From contig NZ_QCYG01000005.1 in NCBI RefSeq assembly GCF_003072065.1, forward strand, positions 124,001 through 188,000: 64,000 nucleotides of DNA, given 5' to 3'. The stretch's first letter is position 1. The number at the start of each line of letters is the position of its first letter. The DNA comes from Thalassorhabdomicrobium marinisediminis (GTDB lineage: Bacteria; Pseudomonadota; Alphaproteobacteria; Rhodobacterales; Rhodobacteraceae). A program made the translations under genes and the position numbers. Shown one piece after another: positions 4,178 through 14,836 of this stretch. Below the pieces are notes generated by a model. It did not search any database. It saw only the letters and a list, made by a program, of their open reading frames with translations, and was not told the DNA's origin.

Positions 4178-5717
4178 ATGCCGCTATTGCAATGGTTGAC
4201 GAGGGATGAGGATCTGCGGGCGGCGGATCGGGTGCCGTATCGGCTGCTTGACGAGGTGCCCGACCTGAGCCATGGCGCGGGCGATGAGGGGCTGCTGGTG
4301 CAGGGCGACAACCTTGAGGCGCTGAAGGCGCTGCTGCCCTTCTATGCGGGCCGGGTCAAATGCATCTACATCGACCCGCCCTACAATACGCGGTCTGCCT
4401 TCGAGCATTACGATGACAGCATGGAACACGCGAAATGGCTGGCGATGATCGTGCCGCGGCTGATGCTGCTGCGGGAATTCCTGAGCGAGGATGGCTCTAT
4501 CTGAGTATCGATTGACGACAACGAGGGGCATTACCTCAAGGTTGTCATGGACGAGATCTTCGGGCGGCGGAATTTTATAGCAAACGTGATATGGCGAAAG
4601 AACTATTCACCTAAATCAAGTGCCCGCCATTTCTCGGACGACCACGACCATATTCAGATTTACGCAAAAAGCGCCGATCATTTTATTCCAAATTTGATGC
4701 CGCGCGGAGAGAAGCAGGACAAAGCTTATAAAAATCCTGATAACGATCCACGAGGTCCATGGAAAACAAGCGACTTATCCGCAAGGAACCCCTACAGCGC
4801 TGGAATATACTCTGTCACGACTCCCAGCGGAAGATTTATCGAAGGCCCTCCGAAGGGGAGATACTGGTCGATAAGCAAAGAAAACCTCGCCGTATTGGAT
4901 GCTGACAACCAAGTTTGGTGGGGTGTAAGAGGCGATGCCATTCCCCAGCGAAAACGCTTCCTCACCGAGGTAAAACAAGGCGTAGTGCCCCAAACGATTT
5001 GGGGCTATGAAGAGGTGGGGCATACACAGGCTGCAAAAAAAAGAGATTGTCGCCCTGTTTGGAATAGAAGTGTTCGGGACCCCCAAACCCGAACGCCTCA
5101 TTCAGCGCATCCTTCACATCGCCACCAACCCCGGCGACCTCGTCCTCGACAGTTTCCTCGGCTCGGGCACCACGGCGGCCGTTGCGCACAAGATGGGCCG
5201 CCGTTGGCTCGGGGTGGAGATGGGCGACCATGCCCGCCCCCATTGCGCCCTGCGCCTGCAAAAGGTCATCGAGGGCGAACAGGGTGGCATCTCCAAGGAT
5301 GTTGACTGGGACGGCGGCGGCGGCTTTCGCTTCTGCACCCTCGGGCAGGCGGTCTTTGACACAGATGGCCGGATCGACCCGGCGATCCGCTTTGCCGATC
5401 TCGCCCGCCATGTCTGGTTCAGCGAGACCCGCCAGCCCATGAATAAGGCGCCGGACGGGCCGCTTATGGGCGTCCATGACGGTCGCGCGGTCGCCCTGCT
5501 CTACAATGGTATCCTGAAGGATCGCAGCGCGCAGGGCGGCAATGTCCTGACCCGTGCGGTGCTGAAACTGATCCGCGACGACCTTGCCGCCACCGCACCT
5601 GATTTCGAAGGCGATCTCGTCGTCTACGGCGCCGCCTGCCGCGTGTCCGACGCCACGCTGAAGGAACAGGGCATCCTGTTCCGCCAGACCCCCTACGACA
5701 TTCCGGCGAGGACCTGA
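4178..5717 (+). pseudogene. Type III restriction-modification methyltransferase subunit (Mod), broken by one stop and one frameshift
   Basis: A beta-class DNA adenine methyltransferase of about 513 codons if repaired. The DPPYN catalytic motif is at residues 66-70, and the AdoMet motif follows near the C-terminus (LDSFLGSGTTAAV). ATG 4178 follows AGGGA. Two lesions are visible. TGA at 4502-4504 interrupts LSEDGSI-stop-VSIDDNEGHY, where the family normally has Trp (TGG). The reading frame then shifts at a run of eight A (5035-5042): seven A would join AAKK to EIVALFG. Everything else still translates as good Mod sequence, so decay is recent, or expression needs slippage plus readthrough, or these are assembly errors. 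It is followed 2 bp later by intact res. Confidence 0.88.
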
Positions 5718-5719
5718 CC

Positions 5720-8425
5720 ATGCAGCTCAAGACCTACCAGAAAGCTACGCTGGACACGCTCGACGCTTTCTTTGCCCGCGCGCTTGCCACCGGCCCTGCC
5801 GAGGCCTTTCAGCATGCGGTCGAAGAGCAGGAAAAGCTCGCACACCTTGAGGGTCGCAAACTGGAGCCTCGGACCTACCAGCCTCTGCAAAGCCTCCCCG
5901 AAGTTCCCTATGTCTGCCTGCGCCTACCAACCGGTGGCGGCAAGACGATTCTCGCGGCGGAGACGATCCGGCTCGCCACGCGCAGCTACCTGCGCCGCAA
6001 ATGGCCGCTGACACTCTGGTTCGTGCCCTCGGATGCAATCAAGACCCAGACGCTGGAGGCGTTGAAGGACCGCACGCACCCCTACCGCCGCAGGCTCGAT
6101 GAGAATTTTAGCGGCCATGTCCGGGTGTTCGACATCGCGGAGTTCGAGATGTTGCGCCCCCAGGACCTGGCGGGTTCAGCTTGCGTTGTCGTCTCCACGG
6201 TCCAGGCGTTCCGGGTAACGAACACCACCGGACGCAAGGTCTATTCTTACCACGAGGAACTCGAAACACATTTCTCCGGCGTGCCGACTGAGGGAATGGA
6301 AGTCGTGTCGCCTGAAGAAGCCGCCCAGAACGACCAGCTGACCGAAGGCGCGGTGAAATTCTCCTTCGCCAACCTCCTCTATGATCAGCGCCCCCTGATG
6401 ATCGTCGACGAGGCGCACAACGCCGTATCAGGCCTGACACGTGAGGTGCAGGCCCGTATCCGACCTGCGGCCATTGTCGAGTTCACGGCAACCCCGCGCG
6501 GCCGTAACAACATCCTGTATTCCGTCACGGCAAGCGCGCTGAAGGACGAGGAGATGATCAAACTCCCGATCCGCGTCCGGCCGCATGACGACTGGCGCGA
6601 GGCGGTCACCGGCGCGGTGGCCACCCGCAACATGCTGGAAGAGAAGGCAAAGCGGGACAAGGATCATATCCGTCCTGTGGTGCTCTACCAAGCCCAGGCG
6701 CGCAATGGTCACCCCACGGTGGCGGAGCTGAAGACCTATCTGGTCGAGGAAAAGCTGATCCCCGAGGACCGAATCAAAATTGCAACCGGCGAGCAGCGCG
6801 AACTCGACGGCGTCAACCTGCGCGATCCCGCCGAGCAGACGCGGCACGTGATTACCGTGGACGCCTTGAAGGAGGGCTGGGATTGCCCCTCAGCCTATGT
6901 TCTCTGCGCTACCCAGCGGCTCCAGAGCCGAGGCGCTGTTGAGCAGCTCTTGGGCCGGGTTCTACGCATGCCCTATGCGGCGCGCAGGAAGGATGCCGCG
7001 CTGAACTGCGCCTACGCCCATGTCTCGGAGCCCTCGTTCAGGGAGGCGGCCCAAGCGTTGACCGACAAGCTGATCGACATGGGGTTCACGGACGAGGAGG
7101 TTCGGGAGTCCCTAAAGCCCCGTGGTGTCGAGCAGAACGACCAGGGGGAACTGTTCGACCCCGATCCAGTGCGCCCGAAGCCGGTGCTCCAGTTCACCGT
7201 GCCCGACAACGAGGATGCCCGTGAACGCCTGAATGGGTGGCAGGACGAGGGGGTCGACTACATCCAGCGCGATGACGGCACGTTGGCCGTCGGCGTTAAG
7301 GGCGAGGTGACCGACGAGATTGCCCTGGGCGTCCGCGAGATCACGCGTGAAGAAGATCGTGCCCATTTCGATGCTCAGCTCGAAAAGCACCGGGCGACCG
7401 TAGAGGCCAGCCGAACGCTCGCCCAGAAGGGCCATGTCATCGAGATCCCCCAGCTTCTGGTGAAGATGGAGGGCGAGACCTTCCTCGCCAAGACAGATGC
7501 GATCATGGAGCGCGTCGACTGGTCCCTGGATCGCCATCCGGCGCGGCTGACCGAACAGGAGCTGAGCTTCCACAAGTCCCAGGACGTCATCGAGATCGAC
7601 CTCGAGGGTGAGAAGCTGGTCTACAGTCGCATGACAGAAGAGCAGCCGATCCTGTCCGGCCTGCATGCTCCTTCGGACGCGGACCTCGAGGCATCGCTGG
7701 TCCAGTGGCTGGAGCGAGAATGTCGGGTGCCGGATATACCGCAGGCGGAAATGCTGCCCTGGATCGCCGCCATGGTGGCAGATCTGGTCACGAACAGGGA
7801 CGTCAGCATTCGCACTCTGATCGACTGGCAGCATCAGATCGCCGCGCGCATCCGGTGGAAGATCCAGACGATTCGCAACGAGGAAAAGACCCGAGCGCAT
7901 CAGATAGCGCTGTTCGATGAAGGGGCGAAACCTACTTGGTCTGACAGCCGCGTGATCCGGTTCGATGACACTATCTATCAAAATGTGCCTACCAAACCGA
8001 CGGGTGCTTTCCGTTTCAATCGACACCTTCTGGGTCCAGATCGTGCTCCTCTAATCGACGGAGATCTCAACGGCGAGGAATTTCAGTGTGCTTGGAGCCT
8101 TGATAGCCTTGAAGAGGTCGAGGTCTGGGTGCGTAATGTGGCGCGGCATCCGAATTCGTTTTCATTGCCCCGCGTGGGCCGACGCTTCTATCCGGATTTC
8201 GTAGCAAAGCTACATGACGGCCGGGTTTTCGTTGTGGAGTACAAAGGCGAACACCTGATTGGTGCACCGGAGGCCCGCGAAAAGAATGCCATTGGCAAGA
8301 TATGGGCTCGCACGACAGGCGGCGTGTTCCTCATGGTACGCAAAGTCGCGCATGGTATGGATATGGCGGATCAAATGAGGAATGCGGTTGCAATACATGA
8401 ACGGCAGCAGGGGCCAGGTTATTGA
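5720..8425 (+). CDS. Type III restriction endonuclease subunit (Res), DEAD/DEAH helicase plus nuclease
   Basis: A 901-residue intact Res subunit, the ATP-dependent translocase and nuclease of a type III system. Walker A TGGGKT lies at residues 71-76 and the DEAH box at 230-233; the second RecA domain has LKEGWDCPSAYVL and QLLGRVLRMPY (helicase motif VI, about residue 415). A PD-(D/E)XK nuclease is at the C-terminus (FYPDF at 823-827, EYKG at 840-843). GAGGA lies 9 bp before the ATG. Res needs Mod for site recognition, so with Mod broken it is probably inert as a restriction enzyme; this is inference. Confidence 0.93.
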   Translation: MQLKTYQKATLDTLDAFFARALATGPAEAFQHAVEEQEKLAHLEGRKLEPRTYQPLQSLPEVPYVCLRLPTGGGKTILAAETIRLATRSYLRRKWPLTLWFVPSDAIKTQTLEALKDRTHPYRRRLDENFSGHVRVFDIAEFEMLRPQDLAGSACVVVSTVQAFRVTNTTGRKVYSYHEELETHFSGVPTEGMEVVSPEEAAQNDQLTEGAVKFSFANLLYDQRPLMIVDEAHNAVSGLTREVQARIRPAAIVEFTATPRGRNNILYSVTASALKDEEMIKLPIRVRPHDDWREAVTGAVATRNMLEEKAKRDKDHIRPVVLYQAQARNGHPTVAELKTYLVEEKLIPEDRIKIATGEQRELDGVNLRDPAEQTRHVITVDALKEGWDCPSAYVLCATQRLQSRGAVEQLLGRVLRMPYAARRKDAALNCAYAHVSEPSFREAAQALTDKLIDMGFTDEEVRESLKPRGVEQNDQGELFDPDPVRPKPVLQFTVPDNEDARERLNGWQDEGVDYIQRDDGTLAVGVKGEVTDEIALGVREITREEDRAHFDAQLEKHRATVEASRTLAQKGHVIEIPQLLVKMEGETFLAKTDAIMERVDWSLDRHPARLTEQELSFHKSQDVIEIDLEGEKLVYSRMTEEQPILSGLHAPSDADLEASLVQWLERECRVPDIPQAEMLPWIAAMVADLVTNRDVSIRTLIDWQHQIAARIRWKIQTIRNEEKTRAHQIALFDEGAKPTWSDSRVIRFDDTIYQNVPTKPTGAFRFNRHLLGPDRAPLIDGDLNGEEFQCAWSLDSLEEVEVWVRNVARHPNSFSLPRVGRRFYPDFVAKLHDGRVFVVEYKGEHLIGAPEAREKNAIGKIWARTTGGVFLMVRKVAHGMDMADQMRNAVAIHERQQGPGY

Positions 8426-8503: not shown

Positions 8504-9667
8504 TTACTGCCGCAAGGTTAAGCGTGCGTAGATGCTCGTGACGGACATCAAGAGCGAATAGCACCCTTTGGTCTTACCCATAGTCTGCGGGTTGTGGTTG
8601 GCAATCTCCTGATACGCTTGCGTCGCCGTGCGGATCAGGTCGGCGTCGGTCAGGACCTCGGGTCTTTCCATCCGCCAGCGCATGCCATTGTTCCGGATGA
8701 AAACTGAATGTGCCGCAATGATCGGGAAGATAAGGCCATCGGGCACCTCTTTGACCATGCGATCCTCGCGTTCGATGGAGCGGATGCCAGTACCGATGAA
8801 CCCCTGATGCTGCTTCCAGTTGAGGTATAGTTGCCATGCAATCGGTGCTACGTCGAGGAAGCAGTCGTAGATCTTCTTGTTTTCAGGCTTCTCCACCAAT
8901 TCTTGGAACAGCTTGAGGCAGCGCGTCTTCTGACTGTAGGAGAACACCTTGTTCTCGGGGTCCGACTGCCGCTTGAATTTTTCCATCATCTCGACGGGCA
9001 AAGCGGCGAAAGTGACCTGCACCAGCTTCTCGGTGTCAAGGGTGTCTTCCTTGTCGTTCTGTTCGCTCTCACTCTTTTGCAGTCGCACATCCGGGAAATG
9101 CTCGATCATGCGTGCTTCGAGAGCGTCGATGTGTCCTCGTCGCCCAGCGATGGACAGGGCCCGCACATCGTTCTGGAAGTTCCTCGCGATGGAAATCTCA
9201 GCAATCAGGTCGTCGTCGTCAGTCACGATGATTTCGTAGCGGATACTCGGTTCCTGATAATCCTCATTGAATGTTTCGGCGTAGAACTTCCGCAGTTCGC
9301 CCTGGGTCTGCGATCCATTAATGATGCTTGGCTTGAGTAGCGTCATCTTTCTGTTCTTATCGTCCACTTCGGCATCGCGGGCGACGATTACGATGCCACC
9401 GTTCAGAATTGAGAAAAGCGGCGAATTGTCCTTCAGGGTTTTGCGGATCGCCTGATGGACGAGTGTGGGCGACTTCTTCTGCTTGCCCTTTGCTTCGACC
9501 AGATACTCGCGAACGTTCTCGTTGTCCTCGAGTTCCAGCACCGAACGCGCGGGCGCTGTGCCGGCATATACTTTCCGGCTCGCGCTCGTATCTTCGGGCG
9601 AGGAAATGTTACGGCAGTTGTGGTAGGGGAATGCGAACAGGGTCGCGGCTGCATCAGCAGTCGTCAT
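8504..9667 (-). CDS. AIPR-family protein (abortive infection phage resistance type)
   Basis: A 387-residue protein with the AIPR hallmark region: a long N-terminal part, then SPLFSILNGGIVIVARD and SIINGSQTQGEL (about residues 108-150), where the NGxQT motif is the family signature. No membrane segments are seen. ATG at 9667 was chosen because GAGGT precedes it by 7 bp; an in-frame GTG at 9730 has no such site. It is convergent with res and 78 bp from it, so the two share a defence-island context. The family was named from phage-resistance proteins; the biochemical activity is not established here. Base composition is lower in GC than the core genes. Confidence 0.85.
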   Translation of the reverse strand: MTTADAAATLFAFPYHNCRNISSPEDTSASRKVYAGTAPARSVLELEDNENVREYLVEAKGKQKKSPTLVHQAIRKTLKDNSPLFSILNGGIVIVARDAEVDDKNRKMTLLKPSIINGSQTQGELRKFYAETFNEDYQEPSIRYEIIVTDDDDLIAEISIARNFQNDVRALSIAGRRGHIDALEARMIEHFPDVRLQKSESEQNDKEDTLDTEKLVQVTFAALPVEMMEKFKRQSDPENKVFSYSQKTRCLKLFQELVEKPENKKIYDCFLDVAPIAWQLYLNWKQHQGFIGTGIRSIEREDRMVKEVPDGLIFPIIAAHSVFIRNNGMRWRMERPEVLTDADLIRTATQAYQEIANHNPQTMGKTKGCYSLLMSVTSIYARLTLRQ

Positions 9668-10559
9668 GGATAGTACCTCATTTTTCCGATGTCCGACAGA
9701 TTTGAACGGCGCGCCCACCTGGACGGCCAAGACGAGACATCAGTGAAAAGATGCCGAACAAAGCACCTCCAGTCAATAGGGGCGATCATAACGCAGTTTC
9801 ATCAAGTCTTTACCTCAAGCCAGAGCCTACGAAATTCAAGAATAGAGTCCGCTTGGGGTTGGCGGCGGACATTTGTGCGGCATGGCGCAGACGAGCCTTG
9901 AGAGTCGCAGGCGGCGGCCCTCGCCCATGTTTGGTCATCATTATTTTGAGGCTCCATCCTTGATGTGGAACAGGGTTTGAGTATCTCCATAAATGATAAG
10001 CTGGATTCTTATCTGCTCGGGCGGAGACGACGATACGACGGCGGGCTCGGACATTCCCAACCATGCCATAGGTACCCGAGGACGCTATCACGGGCATGCC
10101 AAGCATAGTACGAACGTGCAAATGCAATTCAAACTCAGGCTTTCCAGACCGGGCAGTCGAAGCTCCATGTCGTGAGCCTCCCCTCCGACAGGCTTGCACC
10201 GGCATCTTCGCCTCGTCTCAGCTTCGGTGGCAGAGGTCGTTCCAATTTCATTTGATGAGCCATGTGCGGTGCCGCCACCACCACCAAATCAATCTTTTGT
10301 TTTTCAAAAAAAATTACCGTTTTCGCAGAATGCTACGCAATAGCTGCTCATAAACAAATTTTAGGCCTCAGATCGCCTTTGCGTACAAGCCCCCCTACTC
10401 GCATCGGAAATAAATTATCAGATCATTGATATAACAGAAAAATACAGCTTCAAACCTGACTGATTTGCGTTGAAGCAACGGGTCGACGAGGGACTTATCC
10501 ACAATTCTGTTGCTGCCGTCCTATTGGGGCGTGCCAGGTGCTGGCCCTAAATTCACTTC
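9668..10559. other. Gene-free stretch of about 0.9 kb inside the island
   Basis: No convincing protein gene is seen: open frames here are under 135 codons, lack ribosome-binding sites and overlap one another. The AIPR promoter must lie at its left end. The part from about 10290 to 10460 is clearly AT-rich compared with the rest of the window. A small perfect hairpin (CGTTG-AAG-CAACG) lies near 10469-10481 and a single TTATCCACA 9-mer at 10495-10503, just before the helix-turn-helix gene. It may contain control sites for the element genes downstream, or an attachment region, but nothing can be assigned. Confidence 0.5.
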
Positions 10560-11042
10560 ATGACCAAGCAATCTAAAATCCACGTTGGCAGCCATGTCGT
10601 CACATTGAATAAAGCGAGCGTGCACCTCGACGTGTCCATGCCAACCATTCGTCCAGTACTGCAAAGACTGGGGGTGCGGATACTGCCAGCCGACCGATGT
10701 GACATGTCTGAGATCTGGCGGCGTATGTGGTTGATCGATGATGTCCGCCAGGACGCACTGACCAGGATGATGGAACCTCTCTGCTCAATCGACCTGCTCG
10801 CTGCCCGGATGAATGTGACACCACAGACGATCCGCCGCGCCGGCAACAATTGCGATTCACGTTGGAATCTTCCGCATCACTATGACCTTGGACCTCGCAT
10901 TCGTCGGTACTTGCCGATGCACATCGAAGCCTGGGCGAGGAACGTGGAACCAGAGCCTTGGCTGGTCCGCCGGTGCGGCCCGAGAACCCGCATCGGGCTG
11001 AGAGCACGAAATCCCAGCGCCGCATCGAAACACACGAAATGA
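10560..11042 (+). CDS. Small protein of unknown function with two helix-turn-helix-like segments
   Basis: A 160-residue basic, Arg-rich protein that I do not recognise. Two stretches look like DNA-binding helix-turn-helix units: residues about 15-38 (LNKASVHLDVSMPTIRPVLQ) and about 76-94 (SIDLLAARMNVTPQTIRRAG); both carry the VS/VT-x-x-TIR pattern of a recognition helix. The ribosome-binding site is weak. It lies 120 bp ahead of the two recombinase genes in the same direction, so a role as element regulator or recombination accessory factor is plausible. Codon use is unlike the core genes. Confidence 0.55.
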   Translation: MTKQSKIHVGSHVVTLNKASVHLDVSMPTIRPVLQRLGVRILPADRCDMSEIWRRMWLIDDVRQDALTRMMEPLCSIDLLAARMNVTPQTIRRAGNNCDSRWNLPHHYDLGPRIRRYLPMHIEAWARNVEPEPWLVRRCGPRTRIGLRARNPSAASKHTK

Positions 11043-11162
11043 CGAAACAACCAACAACTACAGAAACAGCGAAAAATATGACGAACACCCAGCACATTTC
11101 GGCAGTCGAAAATTCTGGGACCTTCCTCATCAAGATGAAAACAACAGTCAAAGGACAAAAAA

Positions 11163-12933
11163 ATGAACACTAAACCCAAACTTCCGAATAGCGATAAATT
11201 GATCGAACCAAGCATGCAGGATGTCGCGGACTGGATCAAAGAAAGCGCTCCTTGGGCGGAGGCAACGTGTCGTGACTATCGCGCAAGTGCGTCGGTGTGC
11301 AACTATCTACTCGGTCAATCGGCTGGCAGACGTTCCGGCAGACCTCTCCAAGTTCAGGGCAAAGTTTCCCAGCAACGGAAGTGACTGTGCTCACTTCAAG
11401 ACATTCAAGGCACGCGACGCTTTTCGAAAGAAAATGATTTCAGTTCTCAAAAGGTTTGATGGCACCATGGATGCCGAGCGTGAGTTGAGAGCAAAAGAAG
11501 ACGATTGGAACATTTTGCTTGATGCAGTGAGAAACGATTTGCCGAAAGGAAGAATGAAAGCTGTTTCAGTCTCGGTTTTTGCGAATGAATGCCGCCGATC
11601 TGACCTCAAGCCAAACCAGCTCGCCGAAAAAAAGATCGAAGAGATCTGCCAATGTATGCCACCTGAACACTACGCTATCATCAGGAAAGCTACAAAGTAC
11701 ATCCAGGAACTCAAGTCAATTTCCCAATCGAAATCCCTGTCGGCCCTGCTGCCGGTGCGCGACATTGTTCTCACGAGCGGCGCTCGGCGCTCTCCATTGA
11801 GAAAGCTTCCGGACTGTCTGAACGAGCAGGCGGAAACCTTGGTTCTTCAAATTGCCCGAGGCGACTATGACGAAATTCTTGACGAGTATGGTAGGCACGC
11901 AAGTGATGGCGCTATCGGCGTGTTCCGCGCGGCTCTCCGGAAATTCGTTCAAATCGCAATCGAGCTCAACATTCTGGATCCCGAGACAGACCCACTCCAG
12001 AAAGTCTTCGAGAAAAATGTCTTCATCGAATGCATGCGCGCCATTATCGCAGATCAAGACCCTTCCCGGTCCATCTCAAAAAGAACGCTTCACACTTACG
12101 TCGGCCGAATGATCGCTATGGCTGCACATTGCGGGTACCCCGTGGACTTCATGAAGCAATCGATGAAGACGAACAGGATCCTGAGGCAAGGCTATGCGGA
12201 CAGTCAGGTCATGGCTAAGCAGCCCGAGAAATTTTGCCGAAAGCTCCTGGGCGATCGAACCGCCGAAATCACATTCCATTCGCTTCATGTCACATTCATG
12301 GACAATTCCAAGCGGATCCTCCGAGGAGGTCAGTCTTCGCCAAACGACGAATACCGGATCAACCGCTTCGGTGTTTTGGCCGCGATGAGTTCAATCTCGC
12401 TGTGGGGATCGCCACTTCGTATCGAAAACTTGCGCAACCTTCAGCTTTTTGGTCCGGAAGCCAATTTGCTCATGCCGAAGCGCAAAGGACAGCCAGTCAA
12501 GATCACCATTTGCGGAAAAGAAACCAAGAACCGTCGGCCGATTGACGCTCAGATTCTCGATAACAGAACTCGGGCGGTGGAGGTTTTGAGATGGTTCATT
12601 CAAGAAATCCGCCCGCGGTTCCCGACCGCAAGCAACTCGAACTATCTGTTTCCAGGCTACAAAGCCGACCGCTTGTCATCAACCGCGTTTGGGAATGCTC
12701 TGTACAGTCATACTCGGGATCTTGGGATCCCCATGCACCCGCATAACTTCCGGCATGGGCTGGCGACCCTCTACCTCCGCGATCACCCTGGGGAGTATGG
12801 CCAAGCCGCCCGGTTGCTCCACAATACGTCAGCCACCGTTCGAAAGCACTATGCATGGATCGATGTTGAGAGAGAGCTCTTCGAAGTCCAGCGCGAAATT
12901 GCAAGAAAGGCGGGGTTCCGCCATGAGGATTAG
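11163..12933 (+). pseudogene. Tyrosine recombinase (integrase) 1, frameshifted near its N-terminus
   Basis: The natural start is ATG 11163, which follows AAAGGA. It reads well through ADWIKESAPWAEATCRDY and NYLLG, a SAM-like DNA-binding segment, to about 11327. There one base too many (around 11325-11334) moves the sense frame; the next frame continues as NRLADVPADLSKFRAKF and stays open to 12933. The catalytic domain is complete: Arg in SPLRIENLRNL, HNFRHGLATL (HxxR), and LLHNTSATVRKHYAWI with the second His and the nucleophilic Tyr. Translation from a later start would lack the N-terminal arm. The stop overlaps recombinase 2. It could be a sequencing error; otherwise it is a decayed integrase. 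Confidence 0.75.
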
Positions 12934-14344
12934 GAGCGGCACACTTTCAAGAGTACAGGACTGCATCGCAGACTCGTGCTGGTCGGGTACTCTGGCTCTC
13001 GATGATATGTTGCGTATGATCGCCGATGGTAAATTTTCGGCTCAAGATCTGCACGATCTCACGGCGTTCATGAATGAACTGCAAGCGCGGTCCAACGCCG
13101 TCGATTACGAAGTAGTGTTGGTCGCGACCGAGAACCGTTCTGATTATCAGATCGCTCGCTTGCGCAGAACTACTTGGATGCTTTTCGAGGCCCACCCGAT
13201 TCTGCGCGCGCTCGACAGGGTGATCGCATCACGAAAACCGTCGGTTCGAAAAAAATATAAACCTCGGGAACGCAAGTTCTCCGTTTTTTTTGAAGAGCTG
13301 CCGCAAGATTGGCAGGACTCGTTTGCTCGGATGGATGCCGGACAGCCCGGGAAATACGGAACTGTTCCGGTCCCCTCTATGGCTGCGACGATGAAAACGA
13401 AGGCTTGCGAGTTTATCAAAGCCGCACAGGTTGCCGGCTCCCCTGAAGCGATGTGTATCGCATCTGCCACTTCATATGAGCGATCCTTGATTGCTCGAGA
13501 AAAACCTCTATCGCGCAAGACCATGCTATCTTCCGTTCGGCAAATTCGTGATTTCGCGAGGTATCTTGGATCGGAAGAAGCTGTGTTGGACCATCTGGCC
13601 GATCGCATTCGCGTGCACGAAAACAGGAGCCAGCACTACACACCAGTCAAGCAAGCCGCGATCAACCTGATTCCAGAATACTCGGAGATTTTTGGCATGG
13701 CTTTGGATATGCTGTCCAAGGCAAGCCATACACAAAACCCACGATCCGCCCAATCGTACCGGAACAAAGCTGTCGCGATCACCTTGTTTTGCCCTTTCCC
13801 TCTCAGGGTCTCGGATACCAGGCTGAGGTTCGGTGAGGAAATTCTCTGGGATGGAAGGCAATACCAGTTCGACCTCACGATCTCAAAAACTGGACGGGCA
13901 TATCGACCGTACATTCTTCCTGTCTTCGGCTTCTTTATTGACCAATTGATTCTGCAGGGCTGTTCAACCGAATATTTGGATGCCTTGAGAACAGAATGCC
14001 TTGAGAAACGCCGCCCGCTTTTCGTCAACTATGACGATACTGAGCCGCACCCGCGGTACGTCAGCTATGCTTGGGCGTCAGTGTTTGGGACGGGCAGCCA
14101 TATTGCCCGTACCCATTTGCATAATACCTTTGGTCGCTTGGGTGCGCGGGGCGTCGAACTGGCAATGCTCGCCTGAGATCACCGCTCGGAAGCCACCGCT
14201 GAAGCTTATCGAACCCAGGCGTTCAACTTGCTTGCGCAAGAGAAAATGCACGAAGACCTGGCGGCAGGTATCAATGAGGAGGAATGGAAGGAGTATTTTG
14301 ATCAAAATCCCCACGCTGAATTTACTACCGCAGGAGGTACCTGA
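12923..14344 (+). pseudogene. Tyrosine recombinase-like protein 2, with a premature TGA before the catalytic Tyr
   Basis: ATG 12923 overlaps the end of recombinase 1 by 11 bp. The frame runs 417 codons to TGA at 14174-14176, then continues in the same frame for 55 more codons to TGA 14342. Catalytic-domain traces are PFPLRVSDTRLRF (Arg), KTGRAYRPYILPV and HIARTHLHNTFGRLGARGVELAML. The segment after the stop, DHRSEATAEAYRTQAF, looks like the end of the fold and probably carries the nucleophilic Tyr in EAYR. Without readthrough the product would lack that Tyr. It is divergent from recombinase 1, so the pair probably acts together. Annotators may call it as an intact CDS ending at 14176. Confidence 0.72.
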
Positions 14345-14347
14345 CGC

Positions 14348-14584
14348 ATGACACCACACGACTACCCGCAGCTTCCAAACTGGATTTCCAATCGGCGCTA
14401 CTGCACCATCAAGGATCTCATGCGCCTATTCGACGTGTCCCGCCCAACGATTGATCGCTGGTGCCGCGAGAACCCTCAGTTTCCTCGGAAGCGAAAGCTC
14501 GGAATCCCGGGGCGCGGCAACTGCAGCACGCGTTTCATCGTATCTGAGGTTGCGGCTTACGTTGATCTTATTGATGCAACTTGA
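14348..14584 (+). CDS. AlpA/excisionase-like DNA-binding protein
   Basis: A 78-residue protein with a MerR/AlpA-type winged helix-turn-helix: YCTIKDLMRLFDVSRPTIDRWCRE (residues about 18-41; motif core LFDVSRPTIDRW), then a basic wing and SEVAAYVDLI. AGGAGG lies 10 bp upstream of the ATG, inside the tail of recombinase 2. Position between the integrases and tRNA-Phe fits a recombination directionality factor or a regulator of such an element. Length and motif match the AlpA family; the precise role is inferred from context. Confidence 0.78.
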   Translation: MTPHDYPQLPNWISNRRYCTIKDLMRLFDVSRPTIDRWCRENPQFPRKRKLGIPGRGNCSTRFIVSEVAAYVDLIDAT

Positions 14585-14662: not shown

Positions 14663-14684
14663 CTGTGCCACCACTGTGCCACCA
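14663..14684. repeat. Perfect 11-bp tandem direct repeat near the tRNA-Phe end
   Basis: CTGTGCCACCA occurs twice back to back (14663-14673 and 14674-14684), 78 bp from the 3' end of tRNA-Phe and 79 bp after the AlpA-like gene. Its complement TGGTGGCACAG resembles the TGGTGCC of the tRNA CCA end. Tandem short repeats next to an attachment site are typical of recombinase arm-binding or directionality-factor sites. That function is inferred. Confidence 0.6.
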
Positions 14685-14761: not shown

Positions 14762-14836
14762 TGGTGCCCGGGGGCGGAATCGAACCACCGACACGAGGAT
14801 TTTCAATCCACTGCTCTACCCCTGAGCTACCCAGGC
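14762..14836 (-). tRNA. tRNA-Phe (anticodon GAA)
   Basis: On the minus strand the gene starts GCCTGGG-TAGCTCAG and ends GGTTCGATTCC-GCCCCCGGGC-ACCA with CCA encoded. The anticodon loop TTGAAAA gives GAA, reading Phe codons. The acceptor stem is complete with one U-G pair. The anticodon stem GTGGA/TCCTC has a U-U opposition at its second pair. The 3' end faces the accessory island, making it the likely integration site. Confidence 0.95.

Follow-up and report, generated by a model that had tools for sequence, protein, structure and literature searches.

A conserved two-recombinase gene trio of Rhodobacterales beside the probable tRNA-Phe end of a decayed P4-type genomic island

XerC and XerD act as a heteromer, and in GMT elements, which carry the gene set GmtX/Y/Z, the genes of unlike recombinases are adjacent or overlapping. 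Multi-recombinase families, as set out in the accessible sections of PMC10214605 and PMC3414803, encode two or more tyrosine recombinases in one operon, mostly along with a small accessory protein; blocks of the GInt genes ginC and ginD were, according to the accessible sections of PMC10214605, not found in Alphaproteobacteria. P4-type (Arm-DNA-bind_3) tRNA islands, such as those of Rhodobacter capsulatus SP108 and of genome G254 of our set, have the integrase at one end and an AlpA gene with arm repeats at the other, and these two have tRNA-Phe as their target. The same target borders the locus described here, which lies in a 64,000-nt stretch (the window) of Thalassorhabdomicrobium marinisediminis (NZ_QCYG01000005.1, positions 124,001-188,000; GCF_003072065.1), to which all coordinates refer unless another sequence is named. 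In contrast to that layout, the window has an integrase remnant, no far copy of the attachment site (att) and three genes ahead of AlpA, encoding a double helix-turn-helix (HTH) protein and two tyrosine recombinases, rec1 and rec2. The four codirectional open reading frames (ORFs) of a preliminary description, made from the window sequence alone, stand as placed there, and the tRNA-Phe 3' end points toward them (Table 1). We report that HTH-rec1-rec2 (the trio) recurs in Rhodobacterales, while the AlpA gene belongs, as far as its distribution tells, to something else.

Relatives of rec2 were found in 30 of the 390 Rhodobacterales genomes searched (the window genome counted), and in 15 of 62 genomes of one genus (taken to be Sulfitobacter from the full identity of one stretch with a named plasmid). 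To describe the arrangement we scored 50 distinct loci, comprising enlarged stretches from rec2-bearing genomes, plasmid records and named genomes, with profiles of HTH, rec1 and rec2 that were themselves built from many of those loci (L183, L068 and L099 had been removed as duplicates of L095, L047 and L048 respectively). Of the 49 loci that could be assessed for rec1 (L060 is cut by a contig edge), 48 have it immediately upstream of rec2, and an HTH gene lies upstream of rec1 in 42 of 47 (41 by profile, one by tblastn; contig edges intervene in L037, L060 and L065); L042 and L046, which gave no trio hit, had been left out of the counts. The presence of rec2 with an adjoining rec1 across so many genomes means that the arrangement is not due to chance. 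An independent BLAST clustering assigned the HTH genes from 27 distinct loci to a single cluster (28 rows, one a duplicate), and in a first pass of the same kind over the ORFs that follow rec2 the clusters held seven loci at most. Pairwise identities, compared across 20 loci, are correlated between rec1 and rec2 (rho 0.70) and, more weakly, between HTH and rec2 (0.44) and between HTH and rec1 (0.35), and none of 2000 permutations reached any of the three values. The genes often overlap, by 4-14 bp. HTH-rec1-rec2 is a conserved three-gene unit of Rhodobacterales, and the pairing of two recombinases with a dedicated double-HTH gene, for which the preliminary description could only envisage conservation elsewhere, is borne out.

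Named carriers of the trio include Falsirhodobacter, Limimaricola, Thioclava, Sulfitobacter, Gemmobacter, Paracoccus and R. capsulatus. Among 337 sampled Alphaproteobacteria, which included members of the same family, the window genome alone was recovered at E 1e-15, and a tblastn search of 72,556 plasmid records with an intact rec1 (E 0.01) returned 24 records, each under an alphaproteobacterial name. Plasmid-borne trios occur alongside replication or partition genes; the 14.9-kb plasmid CP049035.1 carries it, and the annotation of that plasmid lists DDE-type transposases and no other tyrosine integrase. Searches of viral contigs and phage records, rec1 queries included, gave no trio relatives, and contig scans yielded nothing with the rec2 query and five loci with a rec1 alignment.

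The two recombinases are long in most loci (mostly about 440-690 residues), and rec1 in most relatives has about 590-685. The true start of rec1 in the window lies near 11163, since the pieces 11163-11384 and 11221-12933 share one frame in relatives. Against the Phage_integrase model rec1 scores 8.3e-6 and 26.1 bits (cut-off 27.1), and its matches to XerC/XerD models are weak (best 3.2e-7 for the window protein); for rec2, scans of Pfam and NCBIfam gave no meaningful match. Both families hold the conserved Arg, Lys, Arg and Tyr of tyrosine recombinases: R400, K436, H508, R511 and Y544 are invariant among 25 rec1 sequences, and among 24 rec2 sequences R295, K322 and R396 are invariant and the Tyr column nearly so. 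A profile-profile alignment of rec1 with rec2 spans 401 columns at 13% identity (probability 94.8, E 5.5e-8). They are ancient full-length paralogues forming separate families, which fits the two divergent recombinases of the preliminary description, as does their 11-bp overlap in the window (rec1 stop at 12933, rec2 start at 12923).

Neither recombinase is whole in the window, because rec1 has a frameshift and rec2 an in-frame TGA (14174-14176) that leaves its ORF without the catalytic Tyr, and this copy of the trio is dead. A rec2-like tail bearing that Tyr continues in frame past the TGA to about 14342, and is 57-66% identical to the C-termini of intact rec2 in L047, L048, L100, L101 and L102 and 40% identical to that in L067. 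The ribosome-binding site of AlpA, which had been placed inside rec2, does fall within this severed tail and so lies outside the present rec2 ORF. Intact rec1-rec2 pairs are present in other loci. The first gene of the trio encodes a 160-residue protein in which two winged-HTH-like units are predicted (AlphaFold, predicted local distance difference test (pLDDT) 79), in keeping with the two HTH-like units of the preliminary description. The excisionase model TIGR01764 is matched by 6 of 22 members of the HTH family (E up to 1; best 1.1e-8) and is unmatched by the window protein itself. A PADLOC scan, made with a defence system in mind as a rival, left rec1 and rec2 unmatched and matched the HTH protein only marginally, to mad1.

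Eight loci encode an additional large protein in which between two and four stretches match the rec1 N-terminal region and none its catalytic part (ORFs at L035 10919-12868 and L094 11113-13098, and also in L052, L053, L056, L061, L062 and L064, in oriented coordinates); by analogy it is possibly a non-catalytic partner, recalling Tfp and GinC. Two islands at different tRNAs share cargo that is 82% identical (L048 611-3255 and L102 4760-7431) and that includes, by sequence look, two metallophosphoesterase-like genes. The HTH genes of L048 and L102 are 83% identical, the alignable parts of rec1 and rec2 just 65-68%, and the recombinases may have been exchanged.

The AlpA-like protein scored 1.4e-5 against HTH_17, just under the cut-off, only weakly against Phage_AlpA (0.089), and matched PHROG 66 ('excisionase and transcriptional regulator', 6.4e-6). 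AlpA was found next to the trio in two of the 50 loci (E 1e-4). The locus in R. capsulatus SP108 (NZ_SWJZ01000056.1) reads HTH-rec1-rec2-AlpA-repeats-tRNA-Phe with all four genes open and an AlpA 72% identical to that of the window; the 3' part of its tRNA-Phe is copied about 31 kb away (55 bp, 98%) beside an intact P4-type integrase with Arm-DNA-bind_3 and Phage_integrase domains. By sequence look, the stretch from integrase to trio in that genome (L113) seems to hold CRISPR-like repeats, RAMP-like genes and a type I methylase gene as cargo. The tRNA-Phe island of G254 is built in the same way without the trio: a 46-bp exact repeat, a P4-type integrase, cargo and an AlpA gene (73% identical), and GTGCCAC repeats occur at both ends of the G254 and R. 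capsulatus islands. The island of G285 has the trio: 48-bp exact tRNA-Phe repeats stand 50.8 kb apart (G285:C1:3717087-3767986; L035 with L208 and L209). Just within one of its ends is a P4-type integrase (46% identical), and its divergent trio stands at 7.5 kb from the tRNA; AlpA and GTGCCAC repeats were not detected within the island. At 3.4 kb outside this island there is another copy, of 30 bp, of the tRNA part. Among the other genomes with AlpA, the best four (G254, G168, G054 and G200) have it beside a tRNA gene in five of five loci; the search of 390 genomes found no rec2 in these four, and trio queries were negative in the seven stretches read.

Because the G254 island has AlpA without the trio and the G285 island the trio without AlpA, AlpA is taken as separate from the trio, and by these comparisons it goes with the P4-type-integrase island. 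An AlpA-like gene and arm repeats beside the tRNA, which the window has, are no strict island feature, G285 having neither. The block had been described as one unit with AlpA included; that does not hold, since AlpA is beside the trio in so few loci and trio-less P4-type islands carry it, and of the order rec1-rec2-AlpA proposed for search in other genomes it is the first two members that recur. AlpA as a general fourth gene of the operon is ruled out by the same count, despite its adjacency in the window and in R. capsulatus.

What appears to be the same P4-type integrase survives in the window genome as scrambled fragments, one of them inverted, 25 kb upstream of rec2, the C-terminal part being 61-63% identical to the R. 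capsulatus integrase. No second copy of the tRNA-Phe 3' end, as a far att, was found in this genome, and chromosomal synteny with two genomes of the same genus restarts only at about window -20800. With the integrase fragmented and the far att gone, the window probably holds what was the tRNA end of a P4-type island, now decayed, and the lack of a second att copy is why we call the window copy a remnant. A same-genus genome, G061, in which rec2 was not found, repeats the tRNA-Phe 3' end twice more over 46-48 bp (L087 and L086; G061:C10:211417 and 226304), which suggests other islands stacked at the same tRNA.

Table 1. Features of the locus and of its neighbourhood in the window
Feature	Position	Strand	Basis or remark
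Double-HTH excisionase-like protein, 160 residues, first trio gene	10560..11042	+	ORF, AlphaFold model, family match
rec1, large tyrosine recombinase, frameshift near 11290	11163..12933	+	Two ORF pieces, one frame in relatives
rec2, second tyrosine recombinase, in-frame TGA 14174-14176	12923..14176	+	rec2-family profile match runs through one TGA
Severed rec2 C-terminal tail including catalytic Tyr	14177..14344	+	Resembles C-termini of intact relatives
AlpA-like protein, 78 residues	14348..14584	+	Relatives in P4-type tRNA-Phe islands; PHROG 66
Arm-like direct repeats GTGCCAC..GTGCCAC, island end	14665..14682	+	Motif common to R. capsulatus and G254 islands, both ends
tRNA-Phe, attachment gene; 3' part is att core	14762..14836	-	ARAGORN and Rfam
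Cargo: type III methylase, broken	4178-5717		In-frame stop near 4502, frameshift near 5030
Cargo: type III restriction subunit	5720-8425	+	Looks open; PADLOC REase_III 1.3e-150
Cargo: AIPR/AbiU-like gene	8507-9670	-	Looks open; PADLOC AbiU 4e-16, AIPR 1.1e-21

Beyond tRNA-Phe and its P4-type integrases, the trio occurs on plasmids and in islands with dusA-, DUF6538- and phage-type integrases, so that at least four kinds of island integrase accompany it. Six loci (L048, L050, L057, L186, L189 and L190) have it near tRNA-Asn with a DUF6538-like integrase of about 630-800 residues, the DUF6538 domain itself being scored in L048 only and the other five integrases assigned by similarity, and phage-type integrases accompany it at tRNA-Cys (L102) and at tRNA-Phe (L192). 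The trio is not randomly oriented: where the nearest tRNA lies within 10 kb downstream of rec2, 14 of 15 loci have the tRNA 3' end turned toward the trio (p 0.001); for a nearest tRNA upstream the count is three of five. In L036, L039 and L184 the operon and a 100-bp right end are alike and the cargo and flanks differ. This right end proved to be the dusA 5' end, arm repeats included, and an opposite att copy with a Phage_integrase gene lies about 55 kb away in G435 and about 42 kb away in G219, giving dusA islands of these sizes (L184 with L202-L204; L036 with L205-L207) that have the integrase opposite the trio. The opposite copy in G219 holds a dusA fragment only, and no intact dusA was seen in the 80 kb read. 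A search of 371 genomes also located part of the right end in 6 further ones, in which rec2 had not been found, and in G195, at 36 kb from that genome's trio. An autonomous element running from the operon on the left to the conserved 100-bp right end was considered and rejected, the right end being dusA and present in rec2-less genomes too. No termini belonging to the trio itself were found, the dusA end being the sole conserved terminus.

We think it probable, with a good part of our confidence still withheld, that two systems lie side by side in the window: the decayed end of a P4-type island, and the trio as an accessory heteromeric module. Together with the AlpA-like gene and the GTGCCAC repeats, tRNA-Phe would then form the attachment end of a genomic island whose P4-type integrase stood at the far end, AlpA being its likely excisionase or regulator. 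By analogy with XerC and XerD, rec1 and rec2 would act together as a heteromeric recombinase on an island or plasmid site, as an accessory to the main integrase, and the double-HTH protein would serve them as an architectural factor of the excisionase kind. As a further step, one that we take only tentatively and regard as possible rather than probable, the trio might be an undescribed two-recombinase system with its own site and reaction, riding in or serving plasmids and islands of several unrelated integrase types. The tie to islands is shown by position and the catalytic capacity by conservation.

Several observations weigh against this account of two systems. The alpA gene directly follows or overlaps rec2 both in the window and in R. 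capsulatus, and trio and AlpA may form one operon there. An integrase sits between the trio and the tRNA in the tRNA-Asn and tRNA-Cys cases and in one tRNA-Phe case, and the polarity of the tRNAs may stem in part from the common ancestry of the tRNA-Asn islands. In 15 of the 50 loci the 10 kb downstream of rec2 contain a tRNA, and a few others have a dusA end, the remainder showing no att landmark within the stretch read. The structure model of rec2 is too poor for use (pLDDT 59), and a fold search with the HTH model gave weak single-domain matches only, none at E <0.001, including BldC (probability up to 0.82) and Xis of phage Pukovnik (0.75). The heteromer, the part played by the HTH protein and the reaction are, moreover, what we infer from these comparisons.

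The trio might instead be the recombination core of an integrative-element class of its own, with its own ends, that inserts preferentially near the att ends of other islands. Its conservation, the catalytic residues of both recombinases, its presence in unrelated islands with several target genes and on plasmids such as CP049035.1, where no other tyrosine integrase is annotated, would all agree with this; however, the sole conserved terminus proved to be the dusA end, with a conventional integrase at the opposite att in two cases, and a search for an empty site, tried for the single locus L036, was negative, the left-flank query matching its own genome alone among 21. We therefore consider such a class doubtful, and an autonomous integrative element is not established: the distinct class that the preliminary description suggested found no ends of its own here, the best candidates being dusA island ends. 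A XerC/XerD-like heteromeric system that resolves multimers of circular islands or plasmids is in our view unlikely. Such a system would employ two different catalytic recombinases, rec1 is weakly XerC/XerD-like, and the trio occurs on plasmids with replication or partition genes and often near an attachment gene, but a double-HTH protein would be an atypical partner in Xer resolution, of which, to our knowledge, a dedicated partner of this kind is no feature.

Membership in a described family, whether Tn554, SE, GInt, RIT or GMT, is very improbable: the general plan of recombinases and a small protein in one operon is the same, as far as the accessible sections of PMC10214605 and PMC3414803 describe it, yet gene content and order differ, the GmtY model NF040693 left the pair unmatched, and the plasmid search brought up none of the Tn554 or RIT hosts named in the passages accessible. 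Least credible of all, to the point that we give it hardly any weight, is that rec2 arose by a recent duplication of rec1 and has since decayed, with the arrangement a chance relic. That both genes are broken in the window might suggest it, but the relatives contradict it: intact pairs exist. The two families are separate, each with its own invariant catalytic residues, and are homologous at the level of profiles at so low an identity; rec2 is therefore no recent decayed duplicate, and the objection on this ground that the preliminary description raised against itself fails.

If the trio is truly a second recombination system within islands, then many Rhodobacterales islands carry a heteromeric recombination machine besides their integrase, and island mobility in this group has been read with one machine missing. 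Current annotation gives little hint of it, rec2 being called 'hypothetical protein' in seven of the seven plasmid records hit and rec1 either hypothetical protein or site-specific integrase. Even as an accessory only, the trio marks island ends, and intact copies are at hand in named strains.

The described families were set apart from the trio partly by their published descriptions, of which sections were accessible (PMC10214605, PMC3414803, PMC5385486 and PMC4482086; for GMT, PMC12259885 and PMC12715929), and the accessible parts of the literature searched held no description of an HTH-rec1-rec2 trio. Tn554 (tnpA-tnpB-tnpC) resembles it in having two catalytic tyrosine recombinases, at least one of them long, and in most cases a small protein (accessible sections of PMC3414803 and PMC10214605), but there one recombinase is of ordinary size, whereas the trio has the order HTH-rec1-rec2 with both recombinases mostly long; the hosts differ, and the trio was found without termini of its own. 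The 24 plasmid records include no Tn554 host listed in Table 2 of PMC3414803, nor any RIT host that the accessible passages name. GInt (ginABCD), as far as its accessible description goes, likewise has a recombinase operon near an island end and a small HTH/HLH protein, but with three integrase-like genes and the small ginD last, against two recombinases and the HTH gene first in the trio. SE elements (intA-tfp-intB-srap), as described in the sections accessible, share with it two RHRY recombinases of unlike size, an auxiliary protein and narrow hosts; in most trio loci, however, no gene such as tfp separates rec1 from rec2, the pair being adjacent or overlapping. Imperfect inverted terminal repeats and a 6-bp footprint also belong to SE; for the trio, no termini of its own were found to set beside them. 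RIT elements also have adjacent or overlapping genes for tyrosine recombinases of unlike type, but three of them, and with its two recombinases the trio is not of the RIT pattern, as the preliminary description had noted. GMT elements are gammaproteobacterial by name and the trio is found in Rhodobacterales; the two E 0.001 matches of GmtY in the window genome lie on other contigs and below the cut-off, and NCBIfam scans of 71 family members (22, 24 and 25) matched no Gmt model, the presence of GmtX and GmtZ models in that library being unchecked. Islands with a dusA integrase are the setting of L036, L039 and L184, which end at the dusA 5' end, but in the two islands followed the conventional integrase is separate from the trio. 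The rec1-rec2 pair and its HTH gene merit a family name; as far as tested, the trio fits no described multi-recombinase family.

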